DNA of 64,000 nt from Herbiconiux ginsengi (GTDB lineage Bacteria; Actinomycetota; Actinomycetes; Actinomycetales; Microbacteriaceae), in NCBI RefSeq assembly GCF_900107435.1, contig NZ_FNPZ01000003.1:62001-126000 (forward strand), written 5' to 3'. The first letter of the stretch is position 1. The number at the start of each line of letters is the position of its first letter. A program made the translations under genes and the position numbers. Positions 35,707-46,358 of this stretch are shown here, in pieces. The notes below the pieces were generated by a model. That model was given only the letters and a program-made list of their open reading frames with translations, was not told the origin of the DNA and did not search any database.

Positions 35707-38700
35707 TTGAACAGAGCTGTCCAACCACATCGCTCCGTGAGATCGCGACTCGTCGCGTCTCTCGCGGCTCTCGCCATGGTCGCCACCGGCGTCCTGGCCA
35801 CCGCCGGCGCGGCATCCGCGTCGACCACACCCGCCACCGGATCGCTGCAGGGCGGGTCCGCTTTCGCGCCGGCAGCGGTCGAGCCCGACTTCAAGGTGCT
35901 CGTGTTCTCGAAGACGGCCGGCTTCCGGCACGGCTCGATCCCCGCGGGCATCGCCGCCATCCAGAAGCTCGGCACGGAGAACGACTTCGCCGTCGACACC
36001 ACCGAAGACGGTGCCTCGTTCACGGCTGAGAACCTGGCCCAGTACGACGTGGTCGTCTGGATGTCGACCACCGGCGACGTGCTGAACGCCGAGCAGCAGA
36101 CCGCGTTCGAGGAGTACATCGAGAACGGCGGCGGCTACGCCGGCGTGCACGCCGCATCCGACACCGAATACGACTGGCCTTGGTATGGCGAACTGGTGGG
36201 CGCGTACTTCAGCGGCCACCCCGCCGAGCAGAACGCCAGTGTCAAGGTCGAAGACCACGCGCACCCCTCGACCGAGCACCTCGGCGACACCTGGGCGCGC
36301 TTCGACGAGTGGTACAACTTCCGCACCAACCCCCGCAGCAACGTGCACGTGCTCGCCACGCTCGACGAGAAGTCGTACACCGGTGGCACCATGGGCATCG
36401 ACCACCCCACCGCCTGGTGCCAGAACTACGATGGCGGCCGCTCCTGGTACACCGGTGGCGGACACACGGATGCCTCCTACAGCGACCCGGCGTTCCTCTC
36501 GCACCTGCTCGGCGGCATCAAGACCGCGGCCGGCGCCGAGAACGCCGACTGCAGCGCCACGCAGAGCGACAGCTACGAGCTCGTTCCGCTGGACACCGAC
36601 ACCGGGAACCCGATGGCGATGGACATCGCGAACGACTCGACGGTCTTCTACGCCGAGCGCAACGGCCGCGTGCAGCGCATCGACCCGGTGTCGCTGCAGA
36701 CCTCGACCGCGCTCACCCTCCCGGTGACGCAGGCGAACGAAGACGGCCTGCTCGGCATCGCGCTCGACCCCGACTTCGACACGAACAACTGGGCCTACTT
36801 CTACTGGGCTCCGTCTGACGTGGGCTCCGACGGGCCGCACAACCGCATCTCGCGCTACACCTACGACCCGGCGGCGAAGACCTTCGACCCGGCCAGCCAG
36901 AAGGCCGTGCTGAAGGTCACCACGCAGCGCAACACCTGCTGCCACGCGGGCGGCGACATGCTGTTCGACAACGACGGCAACCTCGTGCTCGCCCTGGGCG
37001 ACAACACCAACCCGTTCGAGTCCGACGGCTACGCGCCGATCGACGAGCGCGCCGGACGTCAGGACTACGACGCCTCACGGAGCGCGGGCAACACGAACGA
37101 CCTCCGCGGCAAGATCCTCCGGATCACGCCCACCGACGAGGGCGGCTACACGATCCCCGAGGGCAACCTGTTCCCCGAGGCGAACGACACGAACGACAAG
37201 ACGCGGCCCGAGATCTACGCCATGGGCTTCCGCAACCCGTTCCGCATCGGGCTCGACCCCTACACGAACAACCTGCTCGTGGCCGACTACGGCCCCGACG
37301 CCGGCTCCGCCAACGCCAACCGTGGCCCCGGCGGAACCGTCGAGTGGAACATCGTGAAGCAGCCCGGCAACTACGGGTGGCCGTTCTGCGTGGGCATCAA
37401 GTGCTACAACGACTACAACTTCAGCACGCAGGTCTCCGGCGCAGCGTTCAACCCGGCCGCGGTCGTGAACAACAGCCCGAACAACACGGGCCTGACGACC
37501 CTGCCCCCGGTGATCGTGCCGGAGTGGTGGACCGAGAACGGCTCCACCGCCATATACCAGGAGATCGGCAACGCGGGAGCGCCGATGGGCGGCCCGGTGT
37601 ACCAGTACGACGCCTCGAACCCGTCTGAGACGAAGTGGCCGGAATACTGGGACGGCAAGGCGATCTTCGCCGAGTGGAACTCGGGCCGGATGTTCTCCTT
37701 CCAGCTGAACGAGGACACCACCGACACCGTGGGTCGTCACACCAAGATCCAGGACATCAACCGCATCCTGCCCGACATCTTCGACCCGTCGAAGGGCTTC
37801 AGCAAGTCGATGGACTTCGAGTTCGGCCCCGACGGCGCGCTCTACATCATCGACTGGGGATCGGATTTCGGCGGCAACACGGCGAACTCCGGGCTGTACC
37901 GCGTCGACTACGTGCAGGCCAACCCGTCTCCGATCGCCCGCGCATCCGCTGACGTGACGAACGGTCCCGGCCCCTCGCTCGACGTGCAGTTCTCGTCAGA
38001 GGGCACGCGTCACCCGATCGCCAAGCCGTTCACCATCGAATGGGACTTCGGAGACGGATCTCCCACCACCACCGAGCCGAACCCCGCCCACACCTACGCG
38101 CAGAACGGCGACTACACCGCCCGCCTCACCGCGACGGATGAGGACGGCAAGACGGCGATCGCCAACGTGCGCATCGTGGTGGGCAACGCGACCCCGCAGG
38201 TCTCGATCGAGTTCCCCGAGAACGGTGGATTCTTCACCTGGGGAGACGACGTCTCCTACAAGGTGACGGTCACCGACCCGGATGCATCCGGTCCGATCGA
38301 CTGCGAGAACGTGAAGCTCATCCCGGCACTCGGCCACGACTCCCACAACCACGACTTCGGAGAGATCCACGGTTGTGAGGGGAGCTTCCCGACGGCTCGC
38401 GACGCCGGCCACGGCCTCGAAGCGAACCTGTTCTGGGTGGTCAACGCCAACTACACCGACGACGGCGGAGCCGTTGGCGTGCCGCAGACCGGTTACGCCA
38501 CCACGGTGCTGAACTCCACCCACATGGAGGCCGAGTACTTCGACCAGACCGGTCGGGTGAACGGCACCGGCGGCGCGGATGACGGCGTGAAGACCGAGTC
38601 CACCGGCGACAGCGCCGGCGGCGGCCGCAACGTCAGCAACGTCGAGACCGGAGACTGGTGGTCGTACAACCCGATCAACCTGAAGGGCATGGACAGCGTC

Positions 38701-41700
38701 ACGCTGCGCCTGGCCAAGGGCTTCGCGGGCGACGCGAACATCGCGGTGCGCTGGAACGACCCGGTCGACGGGCAGCTGCTCGGGAACATCCCGTTCACGC
38801 CGACCCTGAAGAACGGCAGCCCCGACTGGCAGACCTACTCCGACTTCACTCTGAACTTCGACGGCGGTCTGCCGGTCGAGACGGGCACGGTGTACTTCGT
38901 GCTCACCCAGGGCGGAGCCAACATCAACTACATGACCTGGGGTGGTGACGGCGTCGATTCCAACTCGCCGCCGGCCGTCACGCTGGGTGTCTCGCCGAAG
39001 TCGGGCAGCGCGCCGCTCGTGGTGGACGCCACGGTCGACGCGAGCGATCCGGAGGGCACCGCGCTCAGCTACCGCTGGGATGCCGGTCTCGGCGGCGGCT
39101 TCGTCGATGGCGACGCCACGGAGCAGTACGTCTACGACCAGCCGGGCAGCTACGAGCTGCGGGTGCGGGTCTACGACGAGCAGGGCTCCTACACCGAGAA
39201 GAGCCAGACGATCACGGTGAACCTGGCGGGCGAGAACCTGTGCCTCACCGGTCGCTCCGACGGCTTCGACGGAACCACCCTCGACACGAGCCGCTGGAAC
39301 CGCATCGTGCGGCCCAACCAGGACGCCCGGGTCGAAGGCGGAAACCTGGTGATCCCGGCTTCCAAGACCGACATCTACGGTGCCGGAGCGGGAACCGTTC
39401 CGAACATCACGCTGCAGGATCTGCCCTCGGGCGCTTGGCAGGCCACCGCGAAGGTGACATTCGAAGCCCGCGTGCAGTACCAGCAGGCCGGTCTGATCGT
39501 GTACGGCGACGACGACAACTACGCCAAGTTCGTGCTCCAGGGCCGAGCCGGCACGTCGGATGCCGCGCAGCGGATCTTCCAGTACGTCCGTGAAGAGGCG
39601 GGAACCCCGAACGAGGTCGCGGCGTCGAACACCGCGAACCTGGGCGTGGACTTCCCCGACACCTTCTTCGTGCGGATGACCAGTGACGGAACGAACCTGA
39701 ACGCCTCCTACTCGGCCGACGGTGCGTCCTACACGGCGATGAGCGAGACGAAGCCGCTGGCCGGCATCGTCAACCCGCGCATCGGTCTGGTCGCCTTCGC
39801 GAACAGCGGCTCGCCGCAGGACGTGATCGACGCCCGGTTCGACTGGTTCCAGATCACGCCGGATGACACCGCCGTGGCCCCGACGCCGAACGACGAGTTC
39901 GACGGCAGCGCTCTCGACGGGTGCCGCTGGCAGGTCGTGAACGAGCAGCCTGCGGGCTACCGCGTGTCGGATGGCGCGCTGCGGATCGACACCACGCCGA
40001 ACGACATCTACGGTGGCGACACCGGAGTGCCGAACTTCGTGGTGCAGAACCAGCCCGAGGGTGACGACTGGGTGATCGAGACGAAGGTCGACGCCTCCGA
40101 CCTCGATCGCAGCTACCAGCAGGGCGGCCTGATCGCGTACGGCGACGACGACAACTACGTCAAGCTGGACATCCTGGCCACCAACGCCGGCGGATCGCCG
40201 ATCGCCCGCAACCTCGAGCTCAGGAGCGAGATCGCGGCTACGGTGCAGAACCCGCAGCCCAACGCGCCGGCGCCCGCCGACGGCATCGTCTGGCTCCGCC
40301 TGGCGAAGTCGGGTGACGTGTTCACCGGCTGGTCGAGCACCGACGGCACCACCTGGACGCAGATCGCGGAGACGGTGACCAATGCCGGCCTCGACGGCGC
40401 CCGAGTGGGTCTGTACGCGCTCGGCAACTCCAACCAGGGCCAGGTCTCGAACACCGCGGTCTTCGACTACTTCCACGTGGTCGACGACTCGGAGCCCGAG
40501 GAGCCCGTGACGGTCAGCGCGACGGTCGCGCCGGCTGCCCCGAACGGACTGGCGAACTGGTACACCCAGGCCGTCTCCGTGACGGTGGCCAGCCAGGGCG
40601 GCGGCACGAGCACGGTCTACCGCGAGTACAACCTCGACGGATCGGGCTGGCTCGAGTACACGCATCCGGTACAGGTGACGACCGATGGCCAGCACACGGT
40701 GCAGTACCGTGCGTCGGCCCCCGGTTCGACGAGTGAGATCGGTTCGGTCTCGTTCAAGATCGACGCCACCGCCCCCTCCGCCGCCGCGAGCCTCGTGGTC
40801 GCCGGAGACAGCCGCACGGTCGAGATCACGGCGACGGATGCCACCAGCACCGTCGACACGATCGAATACCGCATCGGCGACGGCGCCTGGGCCGACTACA
40901 CCGCGCCCGTCGCGGTCGACGGCACGGCCCAGACGGTGCACTACCGGGTGACGGATGTCGCGGGCAACCCGTCGAGCGAAGGCACCCTCGAGGTTCCGGC
41001 CGTGCCGGACCCCGAGGACCCGACGCTCACGGTCGAGGTCACCCTCGACCCGGCGATCGCCAACGGTCAGGGCGGCTGGTACACCACGGGGGTCACTCTG
41101 ACCGCTGTCGGAACCACCAGCGACGAGGAGGGCACCGCCACGGTCGAGTACTCGACCGACGGAACCACCTTCGCCCCGCTCGGTGCCTCCACGGTGCTCT
41201 CCGCCGAAGGCGAGACCACGGTGTGGGTGCGGGCGACCGACGGCGCAGGCCACTACTCGGCCACCGTGCAGCGCCTGGTGAAGATCGACACCGTGGTGCC
41301 GACCGCCACCGGCTCCGCCGACTCGCGCACCGTCACTCTCGCCGGAGCCGACGCCACCAGTGGTGTCGCCCGGGTCGAGTACCGGTTGCCTGGTGACACG
41401 GCCGACGTCTGGCGCAGCTACACCGCGCCGGTCGTCGTGGCAGGCACCTCCGCGGCCACGGTGAGCTACCGTGCGGTGGATGTCGCCGGCAACGTCGGCA
41501 CCACCGGCGCCGTCGAGGTGGCCGAGACCGAGCAGCCCGAGCCGACGCCCACCATCGTGGTGGACGACCGGAACGTGAAGCAGGGCGAGCTGCTGAACGT
41601 CACGGGAACCGGGTTCGCCCCGGAGACCGAGGTCTCGGTGTGGCTCTACTCCTCGCCGGTGCAGATCGGCACGGTGACGACGAACGCCGACGGCGGCTTC

Positions 41701-42036
41701 AGCTACGCGCTGCAGGTGCCGGCCGGGTTCGAGGTCGGGGAGCACCACGTGGTGATCCGGCTCGGCGACGTCGAACTGGCGCGGAGCCTGGCCATCACGG
41801 TCACCGCCGCGGCGGTCGACCCGGGCCCCGGCAACCCCGGCGGACCCACGACCGGCAACCCCGGTGGCGGCAACGGTTCGGGCTCCGGCTCGAGCGGCTC
41901 CGGCGCCGGCGGCCTGGCCAACACGGGTGCCGACGGCTGGCAGAACCTGGTTCCGCTCGCCATCATCCTGCTCGTGGGAGGCTTGGGAGGACTGCTCCTC
42001 CTGAACCGCCGCCGCGCCGACGGCAGCACCGAGTAG
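35707..42036 (+). CDS. Giant secreted ThuA - sugar dehydrogenase multidomain protein, LANTG anchor
   Basis: A 2109-residue exported protein starting at TTG 35707 (GAGGGG upstream). Order: signal peptide (about 1-40); ThuA domain (about 60-275; VLVFSKTAGFRHGSI, GGGYAGVHAASD); PQQ-type glucose/sorbosone dehydrogenase propeller (about 289-730; GLLGIALDPDF, GGDMLFDNDGNLVLALGD, MGFRNPFRI, NYGWPFC); PKD domain (744-822); a CBM6-like module (about 937-1077; MEAEYFDQTG); second PKD (1085-1172); two DUF1349/concanavalin-like modules (about 1178-1382 and 1395-1592); Ig-like/chitobiase-type repeats to about 1938; an IPT-like domain; then a Gly/Ser linker, LANTG (2070-2074), a hydrophobic helix and RRR tail. 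Probable role: cell-surface oxidation of bound sugars or polysaccharide (inference). Confidence 0.9.
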   Translation: MNRAVQPHRSVRSRLVASLAALAMVATGVLATAGAASASTTPATGSLQGGSAFAPAAVEPDFKVLVFSKTAGFRHGSIPAGIAAIQKLGTENDFAVDTTEDGASFTAENLAQYDVVVWMSTTGDVLNAEQQTAFEEYIENGGGYAGVHAASDTEYDWPWYGELVGAYFSGHPAEQNASVKVEDHAHPSTEHLGDTWARFDEWYNFRTNPRSNVHVLATLDEKSYTGGTMGIDHPTAWCQNYDGGRSWYTGGGHTDASYSDPAFLSHLLGGIKTAAGAENADCSATQSDSYELVPLDTDTGNPMAMDIANDSTVFYAERNGRVQRIDPVSLQTSTALTLPVTQANEDGLLGIALDPDFDTNNWAYFYWAPSDVGSDGPHNRISRYTYDPAAKTFDPASQKAVLKVTTQRNTCCHAGGDMLFDNDGNLVLALGDNTNPFESDGYAPIDERAGRQDYDASRSAGNTNDLRGKILRITPTDEGGYTIPEGNLFPEANDTNDKTRPEIYAMGFRNPFRIGLDPYTNNLLVADYGPDAGSANANRGPGGTVEWNIVKQPGNYGWPFCVGIKCYNDYNFSTQVSGAAFNPAAVVNNSPNNTGLTTLPPVIVPEWWTENGSTAIYQEIGNAGAPMGGPVYQYDASNPSETKWPEYWDGKAIFAEWNSGRMFSFQLNEDTTDTVGRHTKIQDINRILPDIFDPSKGFSKSMDFEFGPDGALYIIDWGSDFGGNTANSGLYRVDYVQANPSPIARASADVTNGPGPSLDVQFSSEGTRHPIAKPFTIEWDFGDGSPTTTEPNPAHTYAQNGDYTARLTATDEDGKTAIANVRIVVGNATPQVSIEFPENGGFFTWGDDVSYKVTVTDPDASGPIDCENVKLIPALGHDSHNHDFGEIHGCEGSFPTARDAGHGLEANLFWVVNANYTDDGGAVGVPQTGYATTVLNSTHMEAEYFDQTGRVNGTGGADDGVKTESTGDSAGGGRNVSNVETGDWWSYNPINLKGMDSVTLRLAKGFAGDANIAVRWNDPVDGQLLGNIPFTPTLKNGSPDWQTYSDFTLNFDGGLPVETGTVYFVLTQGGANINYMTWGGDGVDSNSPPAVTLGVSPKSGSAPLVVDATVDASDPEGTALSYRWDAGLGGGFVDGDATEQYVYDQPGSYELRVRVYDEQGSYTEKSQTITVNLAGENLCLTGRSDGFDGTTLDTSRWNRIVRPNQDARVEGGNLVIPASKTDIYGAGAGTVPNITLQDLPSGAWQATAKVTFEARVQYQQAGLIVYGDDDNYAKFVLQGRAGTSDAAQRIFQYVREEAGTPNEVAASNTANLGVDFPDTFFVRMTSDGTNLNASYSADGASYTAMSETKPLAGIVNPRIGLVAFANSGSPQDVIDARFDWFQITPDDTAVAPTPNDEFDGSALDGCRWQVVNEQPAGYRVSDGALRIDTTPNDIYGGDTGVPNFVVQNQPEGDDWVIETKVDASDLDRSYQQGGLIAYGDDDNYVKLDILATNAGGSPIARNLELRSEIAATVQNPQPNAPAPADGIVWLRLAKSGDVFTGWSSTDGTTWTQIAETVTNAGLDGARVGLYALGNSNQGQVSNTAVFDYFHVVDDSEPEEPVTVSATVAPAAPNGLANWYTQAVSVTVASQGGGTSTVYREYNLDGSGWLEYTHPVQVTTDGQHTVQYRASAPGSTSEIGSVSFKIDATAPSAAASLVVAGDSRTVEITATDATSTVDTIEYRIGDGAWADYTAPVAVDGTAQTVHYRVTDVAGNPSSEGTLEVPAVPDPEDPTLTVEVTLDPAIANGQGGWYTTGVTLTAVGTTSDEEGTATVEYSTDGTTFAPLGASTVLSAEGETTVWVRATDGAGHYSATVQRLVKIDTVVPTATGSADSRTVTLAGADATSGVARVEYRLPGDTADVWRSYTAPVVVAGTSAATVSYRAVDVAGNVGTTGAVEVAETEQPEPTPTIVVDDRNVKQGELLNVTGTGFAPETEVSVWLYSSPVQIGTVTTNADGGFSYALQVPAGFEVGEHHVVIRLGDVELARSLAITVTAAAVDPGPGNPGGPTTGNPGGGNGSGSGSSGSGAGGLANTGADGWQNLVPLAIILLVGGLGGLLLLNRRRADGSTE

Positions 42037-42131: not shown

Positions 42132-42749
42132 ATGATGCACACGATCATCACCCCGCGGCGTTCGGCTCTCGCCGTCGTGCTGGGGCTGTTCCTCGCCCTG
42201 GCCGCCGTGTTCGGCGCGGTTCCGGCCGCGCAGGCGCACGGGGGCCCGTTCCAGCTCACCGTGTCTCCGGATGGGGCGGGCGGACTGATCGTCAATGCGG
42301 CCTACGTGGAAGACGGACATCCGGTGTCCGAGATCATCGACCCTGTGGCCACCGCCATCTCGCCTTCGGGCGAGAGCGTCGGACCGGTCGCGCTCGTCTC
42401 CTCGCCCGAGGGGGAGGGCATCTGGGTCACCCCCGAGGCGTTCCTGCCCGACGGGCAGTGGGCGGTCACGGTCACCACCACCACCCCGAGCTCGGCCTCG
42501 ACCACGGTCGACGTCACCGTGGCCGAGCTGGCGCCGCCGGTGGAGCCGGGTGAGACCATCGCTCCCGTCGTGGAGGAGCAAGGGGGCGCATCCGGATCGG
42601 CGGCAGCATCGGGCGCGGCTTCGGCTTCGACCGAGGCCGGCGTCTCGCCTCTCACCGTCGGACTGTGGATCGGCGCGATCGTCGTCGTGCTCGCGGTCGG
42701 CGGGGCGCTCATCTACCTCAACCGCGTGAAGCTGTTCTCCCGCCGCTAA
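42132..42749 (+). CDS. Secreted membrane-anchored CopC/YtkA-like Ig-fold protein
   Basis: A 205-residue protein. A signal peptide (about residues 1-36, ending AAQA) leads directly into HGGPFQLTV, so the mature protein begins with a His. An Ig-like beta domain spans about residues 37-135 (PFQLTVSPDGAGGLIVNAAYVEDGHPVSE). An Ala/Ser/Glu linker, one transmembrane helix (about 175-198) and a short basic tail end it. The N-terminal His and fold recall CopC or YtkA-type domains, but no Met/His copper cluster is visible. The palindromic repeat separates it from the giant gene; a CTGAAAGG ribosome binding site precedes ATG 42132. Confidence 0.7.
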   Translation: MMHTIITPRRSALAVVLGLFLALAAVFGAVPAAQAHGGPFQLTVSPDGAGGLIVNAAYVEDGHPVSEIIDPVATAISPSGESVGPVALVSSPEGEGIWVTPEAFLPDGQWAVTVTTTTPSSASTTVDVTVAELAPPVEPGETIAPVVEEQGGASGSAAASGAASASTEAGVSPLTVGLWIGAIVVVLAVGGALIYLNRVKLFSRR

Positions 42750-42818: not shown

Positions 42819-43298
42819 TCAGGGCAGGCGGCGGAGCGAGTTCTGCGGGTCGAGCTTCTGCAGCAGGGCGGCCATGATCTCGTCGAGCTGCTCGACCTGT
42901 TCGTCGCTCAGCAGGTCGATGACGTGGGAGCGCACGTTCTCGACGTGGCCCGGCGCCGTCGCCACCACCTTCTGCCAGCCCTCGTCGGTGAGGTGGGCGT
43001 TCGTGGCGCGGCGGTCTCCTTCGCAGGGCAGACGCTCGACGTAGCCGCGTGCTTCGAGGCGGCTCACCACGTGCGACAGGCGGGGGAGGGTCGAGTTCGT
43101 CGTGGCCGCGAGGTGCGTCATCCGCAGCAGGTGCTCCGGTGCCTCGGAGAGCTTGGCGAGCACGAGGTACTCGAAATGGGTGAGGTGTGCGTCGCGCTGC
43201 AGCTGCGAGTCGAGCACCGTGGGGAGGAGTTCCACCACGGATTCGAGGCGGATCCACGCGCGCAACTGTTCGGGGGTCAGCCAGCGCGGGGTCTCCAT
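42819..43298 (-). CDS. MarR-family transcriptional regulator
   Basis: A 159-residue winged-helix regulator. The central DNA-binding domain is LTHFEYLVLAKLSEAPEHLLRMTHLAATTNSTLPRLSHVVSRLEARGYVERLPCEGDRRATNAHLT (about residues 38-103), including the D-R-R wing. Flanking helices form the dimer interface. It follows the sucrase/ferredoxin-like gene by 9 nt but also has its own -10 box (TAGGAT, minus strand, 6 nt upstream). A perfect palindrome lies just beyond that. It is thus likely autoregulated and a candidate regulator of the upstream operon. Confidence 0.9.
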   Translation of the reverse strand: METPRWLTPEQLRAWIRLESVVELLPTVLDSQLQRDAHLTHFEYLVLAKLSEAPEHLLRMTHLAATTNSTLPRLSHVVSRLEARGYVERLPCEGDRRATNAHLTDEGWQKVVATAPGHVENVRSHVIDLLSDEQVEQLDEIMAALLQKLDPQNSLRRLP

Positions 43299-43304
43299 CC
43301 TTCG

Positions 43305-43328
43305 ATCCTAAGCTCCTTGTCGCGACAA
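43305..43328 (-). promoter_or_regulatory. MarR promoter with palindromic operator TTGTCGCGACAA
   Basis: A minus-strand -10 TAGGAT (43305-43310) lies 6 nt before the MarR ATG. The perfect 12-bp palindrome TTGTCGCGACAA (43317-43328) lies just upstream, within the last codons of the sucrase/ferredoxin-like gene. Confidence 0.6.
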
Positions 43329-44354
43329 CCAACGTCCGCGATCGATCGACACGAGGCGCCACTGCCGCACCTGGCCGAAACGGGTGGCGGCGCAGGTCGA
43401 GAGCATGGGCTCGGAGAGGGCCTCGGCGAGCTCGACGGTGACGGTGCGCGGGCTGTCGCTGTCGCTGTGGCCGTCGCTGTCGCTGTGGCCGTCGCTGTCG
43501 CTGTCGCTGTCGTGCAGCAGCACCGTCCAGGTGCCGCCGTCGTGCCAGTGCTCCTCGATCGGGGCATAGGCGTCGATGCGGTCGTCGCCGTATTCGAGGC
43601 GGGCGAAATGCTGGGCGGCCTGCACCGGATGCGTGAGCGAGCTGCGGCCGCGGAAGTACTTCTCCTGAACACGGCCCTCGAGATACGACTCGGCGATGCC
43701 GACCGCGTCGCCGTCGTCGACCCGCCCGTAGTAGAGGCCGTGCGGAAGCAGCACCATGGTGCCCGCGAAGCGGTCGCCGCCGAGGTGCGAGCACTCCCAG
43801 GTCTCCTCGGGAAAGGCCTCGGCGAGGCGCGTCACGACCTGGCGGCCGCGCACCGCGCAGCACTGGTCGTGGCGGGCGTGGGCGCAGACGCAGAAGACGG
43901 GGCGATCGGATGCGACACCCGTCGAGCCGTCGAGCGGAACGTGGAGCAGTTCCCGCGGATCGTCGACCTCGCCCCAGCGCACGCTCTCCTGGCCGGGGCG
44001 GGAGTCGACCAGGGCCCACCTCCAGGAGTGCTGCGGTGGGCGACGGCCGGTGCGACGGATGGCGAGCGGGCGCATCCCGGCGGCCTCGATGCGGGTCACC
44101 AGCGCGCGACCGAGCTCCTCGTCGAACGGCGGATCGAGGAAGGCCCGTGTGCCCCACGGCCCCGACACCTCCACGAGGAACCACTGCAGCCCCCGTGACC
44201 CCGTGGCCGCCAGCGGGTCGTCCCGTTCCCGCGACCGGTCGCTGCACGGCAGCCACTCGGCGGCGTCGGAGTCGGCGTTCAGTGCTCCGGCGTCGGGCTC
44301 CCCGTTCGCCCCGTCGCTCCTGCCGCTGGCGCTGCCGGTGCCGGTGCCGCTCAC
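43308..44354 (-). CDS. Sucrase/ferredoxin-like (thioredoxin-like [2Fe-2S]) protein
   Basis: A 348-residue protein of the Suc_Fer-like family. The conserved domain begins at WLPCSDRSRERDDPLAATG. The C-terminal thioredoxin-like ferredoxin portion has the cluster FCVCAHARHDQCCAVRG (C-x-C...CC), then WECSHLGGDRFAGTMVLLPHGLYYG. An Asp/Ser/Gly/His insertion near residues 280-300 comes from a hexanucleotide repeat. GTG 44354 is chosen because it overlaps the stop of the upstream ORF (GTGA). A longer reading through the 30-bp repeats in this frame lacks any start codon at the boundary with the oxygenase gene. It may donate electrons to the neighbouring oxygenase (inference). Confidence 0.85.
   Translation of the reverse strand: MSGTGTGSASGRSDGANGEPDAGALNADSDAAEWLPCSDRSRERDDPLAATGSRGLQWFLVEVSGPWGTRAFLDPPFDEELGRALVTRIEAAGMRPLAIRRTGRRPPQHSWRWALVDSRPGQESVRWGEVDDPRELLHVPLDGSTGVASDRPVFCVCAHARHDQCCAVRGRQVVTRLAEAFPEETWECSHLGGDRFAGTMVLLPHGLYYGRVDDGDAVGIAESYLEGRVQEKYFRGRSSLTHPVQAAQHFARLEYGDDRIDAYAPIEEHWHDGGTWTVLLHDSDSDSDGHSDSDGHSDSDSPRTVTVELAEALSEPMLSTCAATRFGQVRQWRLVSIDRGRWLSRQGA
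43452..43512. repeat. Hexanucleotide repeat encoding Asp-Ser runs
   Basis: Repeated gctgtc units, interrupted by gtggcc, encode an acidic DSDSDSDGHSDSDG-like tract on the minus strand within the sucrase/ferredoxin-like gene. Confidence 0.8.
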
Positions 44355-44782
44355 GTCTGCCGTCCCGTGCGTCCGACGCGGCGCCTCGGGAGGACATTCA
44401 CCGTTCGGGAGGCCGTTCCGTCCTCCCGAACGTGTGTCGTGCCGTAGTTCTCCTCCCGAAGGTGCGCCGTGGGGTGGGCAGCTTCCCGAAGGTGTGCCGT
44501 GGGGTGGGCGGCCTCGCGAAGGTGTGTCGTGGGGTGGGCAGCTTCCCGAAGGTGTGCCGTGGGGTGGGCAGCTTCCCGAAGGTGTGCCGTGCGGCGGGCA
44601 GCCTTCCGAAGGTGCGCCGTGAGGCGGGCAGCCTCGCGAAGGTGCGCCGTGCGGCGGGCAGCCTCCCGAAGGTGCGCCGTGCGGCGGGCAGCCTCCCGAA
44701 GGTGCGCCGTGGGGCGGGCAGCCTCCGGGAGGTGAGGGCCGGCGGCGAGGTGCACGCGCTCGGCCGAACCGGACCGGATCAT
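44351..44782 (-). CDS. Hypothetical basic repeat protein (10-residue repeats)
   Basis: A 143-residue ORF of no recognised family. Its ATG (44782) overlaps the stop of the oxygenase gene as ATGA. Its stop (44351-44353) overlaps the GTG of the sucrase/ferredoxin-like gene as GTGA, so it exactly bridges two real genes by the coupling used throughout this window. After about 20 residues it consists of nine good plus two decayed decapeptides of form LREAARRTAH, with R/H/P/L exchanges. Of ten variable positions in the 30-bp unit, five are third-codon positions in this frame versus three and two in the other minus-strand frames. It is strongly basic and His/Arg-rich, the opposite of the acidic peptide at the operon start. 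It could instead be a non-coding expansion between genes. Confidence 0.5.
   Translation of the reverse strand: MIRSGSAERVHLAAGPHLPEAARPTAHLREAARRTAHLREAARRTAHLREAARLTAHLRKAARRTAHLREAAHPTAHLREAAHPTTHLREAAHPTAHLREAAHPTAHLREENYGTTHVREDGTASRTVNVLPRRRVGRTGRQT
44401..44730. repeat. 30-bp tandem repeat array
   Basis: Nine units of 30 bp run without spacers from 44461 to 44730. Two decayed units (44401-44460) keep the phase. Unit-to-unit differences are point changes only and there are no indels, so every reading frame stays open across the array on both strands. Confidence 0.95.
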
Positions 44783-46104
44783 CCGGCCGGAACCAGGATG
44801 CCCTCGCGCAGGAGGCGCCGGGCCACCACGATCGCGTCGTCGAGGTCGAGCCCCGGGAAGTCGGCCAGGGCAACGGCGCCGTCTGGCGAGGCACCGGGGC
44901 CGAAGCCACCTCCGTGCAGACGGCGCACCGTCGCCTCCGCCTCTCGCGGCAGGGCCACGGTCTTCGTGGGAGTCACGATGCGCACGCGATCTCCTGAGTC
45001 CTCGATGCGCGTCGCGAGCGACCCTCGCCAGCGCACCAGCGAAGAGGCGTCGAGGGCGGCGATGGCGTCTACGGTGGCGAGCGGTGCCAGTGGCTCCGGC
45101 CGGGTGGCGTCTGCGAACCGCGCCGCGAGCTGCCGAGCGACGGTGGCGGCCGGATCGGCGGCCCGGAATCCCGGAGGGGCGACGGCGTTCGCCACCGCGT
45201 CCGACGCATCCGGAATCGCCGTCAAGGCCCGCACCAGGTCGGCCACCGTCTCGTCGACCAGCGGGCGGAGTGCTTCGGGGTCGGAGAGATCGATGCCGAG
45301 CGGCAACGAGGCGCGCAAGGCAGGCACCTCGCCGAGGGTCGAGACCAGCGCACGTACCACGTCGGCCCGCGTGTATGCCGCGACACCGACCGTGAGGTGC
45401 ACCGAGGTTCCGCCGAGCGCCTCGGCCGAGTGCAGCCAGCCGCGCGGGAGGTAGAGGGCGTCGCCCGGCTGCAGCACCGCGTCGATGACCGGCGGATTCC
45501 GCGCCTCGCGAGCGACGGCGTCACGATGGTCGCCCCACGGCTGGTCGCGCAGCGGGTCGGGATGCACGGGCGAGTGGATGCGCCAGTGCTTCTCACCCGC
45601 GATCTGCAGCACGAACACGTCGTGCACGTCGTAGTGCGGGTCGAAGCCGCGCGACGACGCCGGGGTGACGTAGGCGTTCACCTGAGCCGGATGCCCGAGG
45701 TCGTCGACGAGGTGCCGCGTGAAGTCGATCAGCGGCGGCCAGAGGCGATGGAGCCCCTGCAGCACGATCGTCGCTCCGTCCGCGAACTCGGCGAGCACCT
45801 TCTCGGAGCTCACCTGATCGCCGACCTCGGCTCCGAACCCGCCGGGCGCAGTGAACGCGGAGGTCGCCAGCACCGACCCTTCCTGCGCCATCCGGATGAA
45901 CGGTGTGCGGAGCCCGCGCTCGGTGATCAGCTCGTCGACCGCCCGCTCGCTGAACAGGTCGTCGAATGCGCCGGGCAGCGAGGACGCGGGCGAGAGGAGC
46001 GGCCGCCGCCCCCAGTGATCGCGCGCGAACTCGTCGGGCGCGACCGAGATGCACCGGGAGAGCGCGGGCCGGGTCTCCGACCCGCGCTCGATCTCGATCG
46101 TCAC
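44779..46104 (-). CDS. JmjC/cupin-type (cupin_4) 2-oxoglutarate oxygenase
   Basis: A 441-residue protein of the ribosomal-oxygenase-like JmjC/cupin_4 group. The double-stranded beta-helix carries the iron facial triad: H-x-D in FDPHYDVHDVFVLQIAGEKHWRIH (about residues 165-190) and the distal His in LYLPRGWLHSAEAL. HWGRRPLL near the N-terminus is also typical, and a winged-helix-like C-terminal region follows (TPTKTVALPREAEATVRRL). Relatives hydroxylate Arg, His or other residues of ribosomal proteins. GTG 46104 overlaps the stop of the acidic repeat peptide (GTGA), so that peptide is the obvious candidate substrate (inference). Confidence 0.88.
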   Translation of the reverse strand: MTIEIERGSETRPALSRCISVAPDEFARDHWGRRPLLSPASSLPGAFDDLFSERAVDELITERGLRTPFIRMAQEGSVLATSAFTAPGGFGAEVGDQVSSEKVLAEFADGATIVLQGLHRLWPPLIDFTRHLVDDLGHPAQVNAYVTPASSRGFDPHYDVHDVFVLQIAGEKHWRIHSPVHPDPLRDQPWGDHRDAVAREARNPPVIDAVLQPGDALYLPRGWLHSAEALGGTSVHLTVGVAAYTRADVVRALVSTLGEVPALRASLPLGIDLSDPEALRPLVDETVADLVRALTAIPDASDAVANAVAPPGFRAADPAATVARQLAARFADATRPEPLAPLATVDAIAALDASSLVRWRGSLATRIEDSGDRVRIVTPTKTVALPREAEATVRRLHGGGFGPGASPDGAVALADFPGLDLDDAIVVARRLLREGILVPAG

Positions 46105-46358
46105 GCCGAGCCGTCGGCCCCGCCGTCGTGGCCGCCCGGGTTGGCCCCGCCGTCGGCAGTGCCTTCGCCCTCGTCGGCCGAGCCGTCGGCTCCGCCGTCG
46201 TGGCCATCGGGGTTCGCGCCGCCGTCGGCGGTGCCTTCTCCGCCGGCAGCCGAGCCGTCGGCTCCGCCGTCGTGCCCGCCGGGGTTCGCGCCGCCGTCGG
46301 CGGTGCCTTCGCCCCCGTCTGCGGGTTCCGTGGTGATGTCATCGTCGTTGATTGCCAT
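46101..46358 (-). CDS. Acidic three-repeat small peptide, candidate modified precursor
   Basis: An 85-residue peptide with a good ribosome binding site (GGAGAG, 6 nt before ATG 46358). A 13-residue leader MAINDDDITTEPA is followed by three contiguous 24-residue repeats with the common core GEGTADGGANPxGHDGGADG (residues 14-85). The repeats differ at only a few residues. It is rich in Gly, Asp and Ala, with one His, Asn and Pro per repeat, and has no Cys, Ser/Thr clusters, signal peptide or membrane segment. Its stop overlaps the oxygenase start. Short leader, repeated core and a coupled Fe(II) oxygenase resemble ribosomally made, post-translationally modified peptide systems. No activity is implied by sequence alone. 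Confidence 0.8.
   Translation of the reverse strand: MAINDDDITTEPADGGEGTADGGANPGGHDGGADGSAAGGEGTADGGANPDGHDGGADGSADEGEGTADGGANPGGHDGGADGSA
46104..46319. repeat. Three 72-bp tandem repeats in the acidic peptide gene
   Basis: The whole gene after its leader consists of three 72-bp units encoding 24 residues each, in frame and without spacers. Confidence 0.9.

Follow-up and report, generated by a model that had tools for sequence, protein, structure and literature searches.

Genomic organisation of the locus

The stretch of DNA analysed here (the window) comprises 64,000 nucleotides of the 4.85 Mb genome of Herbiconiux ginsengi, a member of the Microbacteriaceae (G000; contig NZ_FNPZ01000003.1, positions 62,001 to 126,000). 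It carries a compact set of genes that begins with a small repeat peptide and a JmjC/cupin_4 oxygenase (Table 1), the pair with which this work is chiefly concerned. An initial annotation, made from the sequence alone, had placed five open reading frames (ORFs) here, and all five are present where it put them. It had divided the peptide into a 13-residue leader and three 24-residue repeats, a division with which the 72-bp period (3.1 copies) returned by Tandem Repeats Finder (TRF) agrees, and it had described overlaps between successive genes, every one of which is there: GTGA (46101-46104) between peptide and oxygenase, ATGA (44779-44782) between the oxygenase and an ORF of decapeptide repeats, and GTGA (44351-44354) between that ORF and the frame of a sucrase/ferredoxin-like (Suc_Fer) gene. 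A gap of 9 bp separates the Suc_Fer stop from the start of a MarR-family gene. Pfam matches were to JmjC_2 (1.2e-28), Suc_Fer-like (1.2e-16) and MarR_2 (1.2e-9). Homologues of the window's Suc_Fer start about 30 residues later in the sequence, which leaves its own start uncertain.

Table 1. Features of the locus, in window coordinates, with the evidence for each
Feature	Position	Strand	Basis
Asp/Gly-rich repeat peptide, 85 aa, putative precursor/substrate	46101..46358	-	ORF, TRF, orthologues, dN/dS
Leader-like N-terminal segment MAINDDDITTEPA, 13 residues	46320..46358	-	[DE]xDI-type relatives in most homologues
Peptide repeat unit 1, 24 aa	46248..46319	-	ORF and TRF
Peptide repeat unit 2, 24 aa	46176..46247	-	ORF and TRF
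Peptide repeat unit 3, 24 aa	46104..46175	-	ORF and TRF
JmjC/cupin_4 2-oxoglutarate (2OG)-Fe(II) oxygenase, 441 aa	44779..46104	-	Pfam, invariant columns, AlphaFold 2 (AF2) model, NO66 fold and alignment
Decapeptide-repeat ORF, 143 aa, on 30-bp minisatellite	44351..44782	-	Lineage-specific, outside the conserved unit
Suc_Fer-like thioredoxin-like [2Fe-2S] ferredoxin, at most 348 aa	43308..44354	-	Pfam, alignments, model
MarR-family regulator	42819..43298	-	Pfam

Conservation of the peptide-oxygenase pair

A profile search of named genomes with the oxygenase returned at least 557 confirmed relatives, of which the best 80 were kept. The initial annotation had offered the absence of the peptide beside close oxygenase homologues as grounds for abandoning the pairing; the repeat peptide lies directly upstream of the oxygenase in all 80, with the caveats that one locus is partly N-masked (L063), one peptide starts beyond its contig (L042) and one looks frame-shifted (L113). 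Suc_Fer is the downstream neighbour in 71 of the 80. Because these loci are the nearest relatives only, we also took a sample of 396 Actinomycetota genomes drawn evenly across the phylum. The oxygenase profile matched in 58 of them, giving 64 loci: with some loci viewed unfiltered and others only for ORFs more than 13% acidic, the peptide was present in 49, absent from 12 (L134, L170, L174, L175, L177-L181 and L183-L185) and unassessable at the contig ends of three (L155, L158 and L182). A short precursor encoded beside its enzyme, one of the traits of ribosomally synthesised and post-translationally modified peptides (RiPPs), is found on this count at all 80 named loci and at 49 of the 61 assessable ones in the phylum sample. 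Suc_Fer adjoins 42 of the 49 peptide-bearing loci (the contig of L154, among the other seven, ends after the oxygenase) against none of the 12 peptide-less ones.

The oxygenases with a peptide cluster on their tree, where three label changes were counted against a mean of 9.6 for shuffled labels, with none of 500 shuffles as low, a result that near-copies help. The peptide label in that tree includes three loci whose upstream DNA is cut off (L028, L155 and L182); five leaves are unlabelled, three of which have the peptide (L142, L165 and L172), one of which is cut (L158) and the last of which is L134; and L183 and L185 were too short to be placed. L179 and L031 are long-branch exceptions within the peptide-bearing group. 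Searching the 396 genomes with the peptide itself gave matches in 10, all of them among the 58 that bear the oxygenase. In the window's own genus, three genomes in which the oxygenase had no good match (G005, G006 and G014, the last scored absent on a weak match of 1.7e-4) have no Suc_Fer, and their peptide matches are weak (E 0.007 or worse).

The peptide is under strong purifying selection. In 66 pairwise comparisons among 12 congeneric genomes the proportions of nonsynonymous and synonymous differences (pN and pS) were 0.033 and 0.316, giving a nonsynonymous to synonymous rate ratio (dN/dS) of 0.08; the amino acid sequence is therefore what selection maintains. Selection of this kind, and the phylum-wide recurrence of the peptide next to the oxygenase, place the observation beyond chance, and the linkage of the two genes gives good support to the view that the short repeat peptide is a dedicated partner of the oxygenase.

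Among ORFs of at least 90 amino acids, grouped into BLAST clusters over the 80 neighbourhoods with flanks of up to 6 kb, only the peptide, the oxygenase and Suc_Fer recur widely; the larger minus-strand clusters overlap the cassette genes and were read as shadow ORFs. No transporter or protease family recurs in that span, divergent or distant genes being outside its scope, and neither multinuclear non-haem iron-dependent oxidative (MNIO) enzymes nor radical S-adenosylmethionine (SAM) enzymes are among these widespread families, no search having been aimed at them. The conserved unit is the peptide and the oxygenase, usually followed by Suc_Fer. Its oxygenase branch is spread over the Actinomycetota, including relatives of Mycobacterium, Rhodococcus and Gordonia, and 44 plasmid records also match the oxygenase, all at less than 60% identity.

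The repeat peptide and its likeliest target residue

Most of the peptides open with a short acidic segment that closes on DI or DM, in many cases with T as the next residue (examples are DDDITT, DEDIETV and SDDDIQT). The Actinomycetes-type repeat unit that follows reads EGPADGG[AS]NPxGHDGGADG[ST]A, and in other classes the cores are mostly poly-(T/A/S)D(G/A)D. Rarer cores were ADGTDQGVxGGTYGPRD at L142 and PTEDDENLDAPGEHSQDTGDE at L172. A conserved leader with a more variable core, a second trait of RiPPs, is therefore seen here, in that the [DE]xDI-type segment occurs in most peptides and the cores vary by clade. The tested peptides match no Pfam or NCBIfam family, so mining by way of those databases would overlook them. 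At L142 the precursor is enlarged, with several ADGxDQGVxGGTYGPRD-type repeats behind a DDDI leader, in a genome that has no Suc_Fer.

The initial annotation had proposed that an Asn, Asp, His or Pro of each repeat is hydroxylated. The core finder recognised 144 of 174 loci; it missed some peptides that are visible by eye and picked an upstream start for some, and an unfiltered view of the upstream ORFs shows the same Asp-rich ORFs. Among the 129 distinct Asp-rich cores, 28 have no His, 29 no Asn and 7 no Pro. Asp, Gly and Ala occur in all 129 and Cys in none, although an ORF had to be rich in Asp and poor in both Cys and hydrophobic residues to pass the finder, which partly builds in the figures for Asp and Cys and leaves those for His, Asn and Pro unaffected. 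The residue after a core Asp (1766 in total) is Gly in 1089 cases and Ala in 374. If one side chain is targeted throughout the family, then Asp, on these sequence counts, is the likeliest candidate, because so many cores are without His or Asn; the evidence does not favour the other three residues named in the initial annotation, which are missing from entire groups of homologous cores.

We think it unlikely that the peptide is the substrate but that its His, Asn or Pro is what is modified in the Actinomycetes-type repeats (GANPxGHDGGADG). Such a preference would suit the nearest solved relatives, NO66 and MINA53, which hydroxylate His according to excerpts of PMC4543633, and within the 91 DGGAD-type cores His is present in every one and Asn in 86. 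Against it stand the counts above, the Gln that L129, outside those 91, has at the His position of DGGAD-type repeats, and the Asp-rich repeats of the divergent clades, which are mostly without His or Asn.

One case ties the form of the core to the enzyme: G060, from the window's own order, has a clade-2 oxygenase together with a DAD-type core, so that here the core type tracks the oxygenase clade and not the host order.

The oxygenase

JmjC enzymes of the ribosomal-oxygenase type are regarded as modifiers of ribosomal proteins. The AF2 model of the present oxygenase (predicted local distance difference test score, pLDDT, 91.2) has its best fold match in NO66, extending along the whole length of the protein (Z 27.8, root-mean-square deviation 5.5, 389 residues aligned), with further fold matches to MINA53 (Z 26.6), YxbC (about 20) and YcfD (19.3). 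Across 34 diverse members of the family H157-x-D159, K172 and H225 do not vary, and this HxD...H motif and Lys align with their NO66 equivalents. A JmjC core with HxD...H and a whole-length NO66/YcfD fold, as in ribosomal oxygenases, are both found. Given the modelled fold and the Fe-binding residues, the protein is expected to be catalytically active, as an Fe(II)/2OG-dependent protein hydroxylase of the NO66/MINA53 type. It differs from NO66 in sequence, with 22-24% identity in the structure alignments, and from NO66, MINA53 and YcfD together in that a dedicated repeat peptide is encoded alongside it in Actinomycetota, gene linkage pointing to this peptide and a ribosomal substrate not being indicated.

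That whole-length likeness to NO66, MINA53 and YcfD is the argument for a different arrangement, in which the oxygenase has a ribosomal protein as its target. The peptide would then be an acidic protein in its own right, serving for example as a chaperone, ion buffer or regulator, and would only share the operon. We regard this as less likely again than a His, Asn or Pro target. The peptide-oxygenase pair is patchily distributed, being present in 49 of the 396 genomes; all three genes are jointly missing from G005, G006 and G014; the core type follows the oxygenase clade in G060; and eleven genomes without Suc_Fer retain the peptide and the oxygenase together. The patchy distribution, the joint absence and the one core-follows-clade case argue that the peptide is the dedicated partner of the enzyme.

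In other searches, the oxygenase matched three PHROGs of unknown function and gave a weak match (16 bits) to the ZorF model of PADLOC; the window peptide had no match in PADLOC or PHROGs. A role in anti-phage defence, for which the weak ZorF match was the sole pointer, was rejected. At L031, from another genome of the family, the related JmjC gene lies just after an ORF that, read by eye, resembles a SagB-type dehydrogenase, and this is perhaps another RiPP locus.

The Suc_Fer protein

The Suc_Fer model (pLDDT 87.5) seems to adopt a thioredoxin-like [2Fe-2S] ferredoxin fold: the best seven Foldseek matches are all proteins of that kind, with a probability of 1.00 and template-modelling (TM) scores of 0.65-0.69 by target, at weak E-values of 6e-3 to 2e-2, none below 0.001. 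A sequence search of the PDB gave no match. The ligand motif is C157-x8-C166 ... H190-x3-D194 (P0004 numbering). The motif published for Aim32/Apd1-type ferredoxins, as it appears in excerpts of PMC8482512, is CX8CXnHX3H. The oxygenase-adjacent Suc_Fer proteins share with that group the CX8C element and the fold of the best PDB matches, and they keep the first His; they depart from the bis-histidinyl motif at the second, where 140 of the 142 sequences have Asp instead; this set includes some genomes twice. To judge from the motif, HX3D suggests a different set of cluster ligands or an open iron site.

Among 40 relatives, PF06999 Suc_Fer is present in all 17 that bear the oxygenase and in one of the 23 others (Fisher p 2e-10, the related genomes not being independent). 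In 17 genomes no Suc_Fer was found beside the oxygenase, and 11 of these have none in the available genome sequence, some of the Suc_Fer-less genomes being incomplete (G275 is 81% complete); all 11 keep the peptide beside the oxygenase. The partnership put forward in the initial annotation therefore stands on co-occurrence, and obligatory membership does not: Suc_Fer is a supported partner of the pair that some genomes do without. In the loci viewed no common gene replaces it, the neighbours being MFS-, isopentenyl diphosphate (IPP) isomerase- and ClpP-like by eye.

JmjC enzymes mostly hydroxylate or demethylate, and genomes without Suc_Fer exist; both facts speak against a pair in which oxidation goes beyond hydroxylation (desaturation, decarboxylation or backbone cleavage at Asp, for example) with Suc_Fer in a second redox step, which we find improbable and the least likely of the three alternatives. 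In its favour are the adjacency of Suc_Fer at most peptide loci, the prevalence of HX3D and the SmaO/SmaX pathway, which is cited in excerpts of PMC13097080 as taking beta-hydroxy-Asp on to aminomalonate.

Two further observations concern Suc_Fer. One peptide-oxygenase pair with no adjacent Suc_Fer has an HX3D-type copy about 23 kb away, at L209 (G208:C1:3629485-3629745). In the window, a 6-bp GCTGTC array (43452-43512) within the Suc_Fer gene produces a DSDSDG-rich insertion near the C-terminus.

A proposed peptide-modification cassette

From the sequences and models together we consider it probable, with appreciable room for doubt, that the locus is a RiPP-like cassette in which the oxygenase modifies its dedicated repeat peptide by hydroxylating several of the Asp residues, probably at the beta carbon. 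The first gene would supply the repeat peptide, whose N-terminal [DE]xDI-type segment may serve as the recognition element in most lineages, and the NO66-like enzyme would then act on the Asp residues of the repeats. Suc_Fer may supply or remove electrons, by re-reducing the iron of the oxygenase, for example, or by joining a second step, and this contribution would be dispensable in some lineages. Since no conserved exporter or protease was found nearby, the product may stay and act inside the cell. A polyanionic peptide with multiple hydroxylated Asp residues would be suited to binding metals or other cations, although a metal-ligand role for the product is a guess. The broader idea that intracellular poly-(beta-hydroxyaspartyl) peptides serve across the phylum as a genetically encoded multivalent ligand for a metal such as iron is doubtful. 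On this view a NO66-type JmjC oxygenase would modify many Asp residues in each molecule, and an unusual Cys2-His-Asp [2Fe-2S] thioredoxin-like protein would exert redox control over the bound metal or over the enzyme.

Several observations weigh against the hydroxylation of Asp in a dedicated peptide. No clear [DE]xDI motif is found in L022, L024-L026, L129 or L133. The universality of Asp partly reflects the criterion of the core finder and is equalled by that of Gly and Ala in the same 129 cores. Oxygenases without a recognised peptide lie in or near the peptide clade (L134, which is the same as L027, from G092; L179; and L031), and the closest solved relatives of the enzyme act on His or Arg of ribosomal proteins. 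Suc_Fer is not adjacent in 9 of the 80 named loci, and seven of those nine genomes have none; HX3D is also present in two of six readable non-adjacent Suc_Fer proteins, the other four having His. In 78 upstream regions the best IdeR-like scores were no better than those of controls (9.76 of 19 against 9.93 of 19, the controls being simple shuffles and reversed sequence), giving no general operator signal, and general iron control by IdeR was rejected on this basis. One 19-base stretch, lying upstream of the peptide start at a distance of about 117 bases, is shared by four related Mycolicibacterium loci (L101, L104, L111 and L117) and agrees with an IdeR-box consensus in 13 of its 19 bases; a score of at least 13 was also seen in 7 of 468 controls.

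Relationship to known systems

Close parallels are found in biphenomycin-type RiPPs, where, according to excerpts of PMC12707348 and PMC12257519, the JmjC/cupin-like enzymes BipG and PbsQ (and, by prediction, BpmG) act on a ribosomally made peptide by hydroxylating ornithine. In those clusters this is one step beside those of MNIO, B12 radical SAM, deguanidinating and TldD-type enzymes, whereas the present unit has an Asp repeat for a core and, Suc_Fer apart, no evident modifying enzyme other than the oxygenase. Beta-hydroxylation of Asp in RiPPs is known from other systems, as excerpts of PMC13097080 describe.

No description of a stand-alone unit of peptide, JmjC enzyme and Suc_Fer was found among the literature matches listed, and six peptide motif strings had no occurrence in the literature searched. 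Among the matches listed for YxbC, the cassette is unmentioned in titles and abstracts. FIH is a human JmjC enzyme that is promiscuous, acts on folded repeat substrates and is not known to be gene-linked to them, and in these respects it differs from the enzyme described here. The likeness lies in its action on repeat proteins, in which, according to excerpts of PMC4543633, it uses 2OG to hydroxylate Asn, Asp or His, an aspartyl residue of an ankyrin protein being among its targets. JmjC/cupin-like RiPP enzymes, Asp beta-hydroxylation in RiPPs and Asp hydroxylation by FIH are in this comparison already known, and what appears to be new is the stand-alone unit.

If our proposal is correct, one branch of the ribosomal-oxygenase type has a dedicated and evolving repeat peptide as its substrate, which would constitute a new class of peptide modification. 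It would also provide a ready substrate for studying the specificity of JmjC enzymes on repeats, and a genomic role for the Suc_Fer ferredoxin family in bacteria.

Genes outside the conserved unit

Two members of the gene set in the initial annotation do not belong to the system. TRF identifies a 30-bp minisatellite (44452-44734) between the oxygenase and Suc_Fer genes, and it is this insertion that creates the 143-aa decapeptide-repeat ORF. The sister genome G002 lacks the insertion, and its oxygenase gene runs straight into Suc_Fer with overlapping stop and start codons; the ATGA at which the decapeptide-repeat ORF begins is the one that serves there as the Suc_Fer start. At L005, from the same genus, different repeats have been inserted at that junction. 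The product weakly resembles repeat models, below their cut-offs, and no homologue was found in 29 related or 80 named loci. It was discarded as a component of the system and is a lineage-specific insertion. The proposal that MarR gates expression did not survive either as a general one: within the flanks retrieved, a MarR homologue on the same strand is near the unit in 7 of the 80 named loci, all assigned to the window's genus by agreement of contig coordinates, four at about 1 kb and three at about 3.5 kb beyond the oxygenase.

On the opposite strand, convergent with the cassette, the window encodes a secreted-looking protein of 205 amino acids with a C-terminal membrane segment (42132-42749), for which there was no Pfam family above cut-off. 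A second secreted-looking protein, of 2109 amino acids and with a C-terminal anchor when read by eye, is encoded on that strand at 35707-42036 and ends just before the cassette region.

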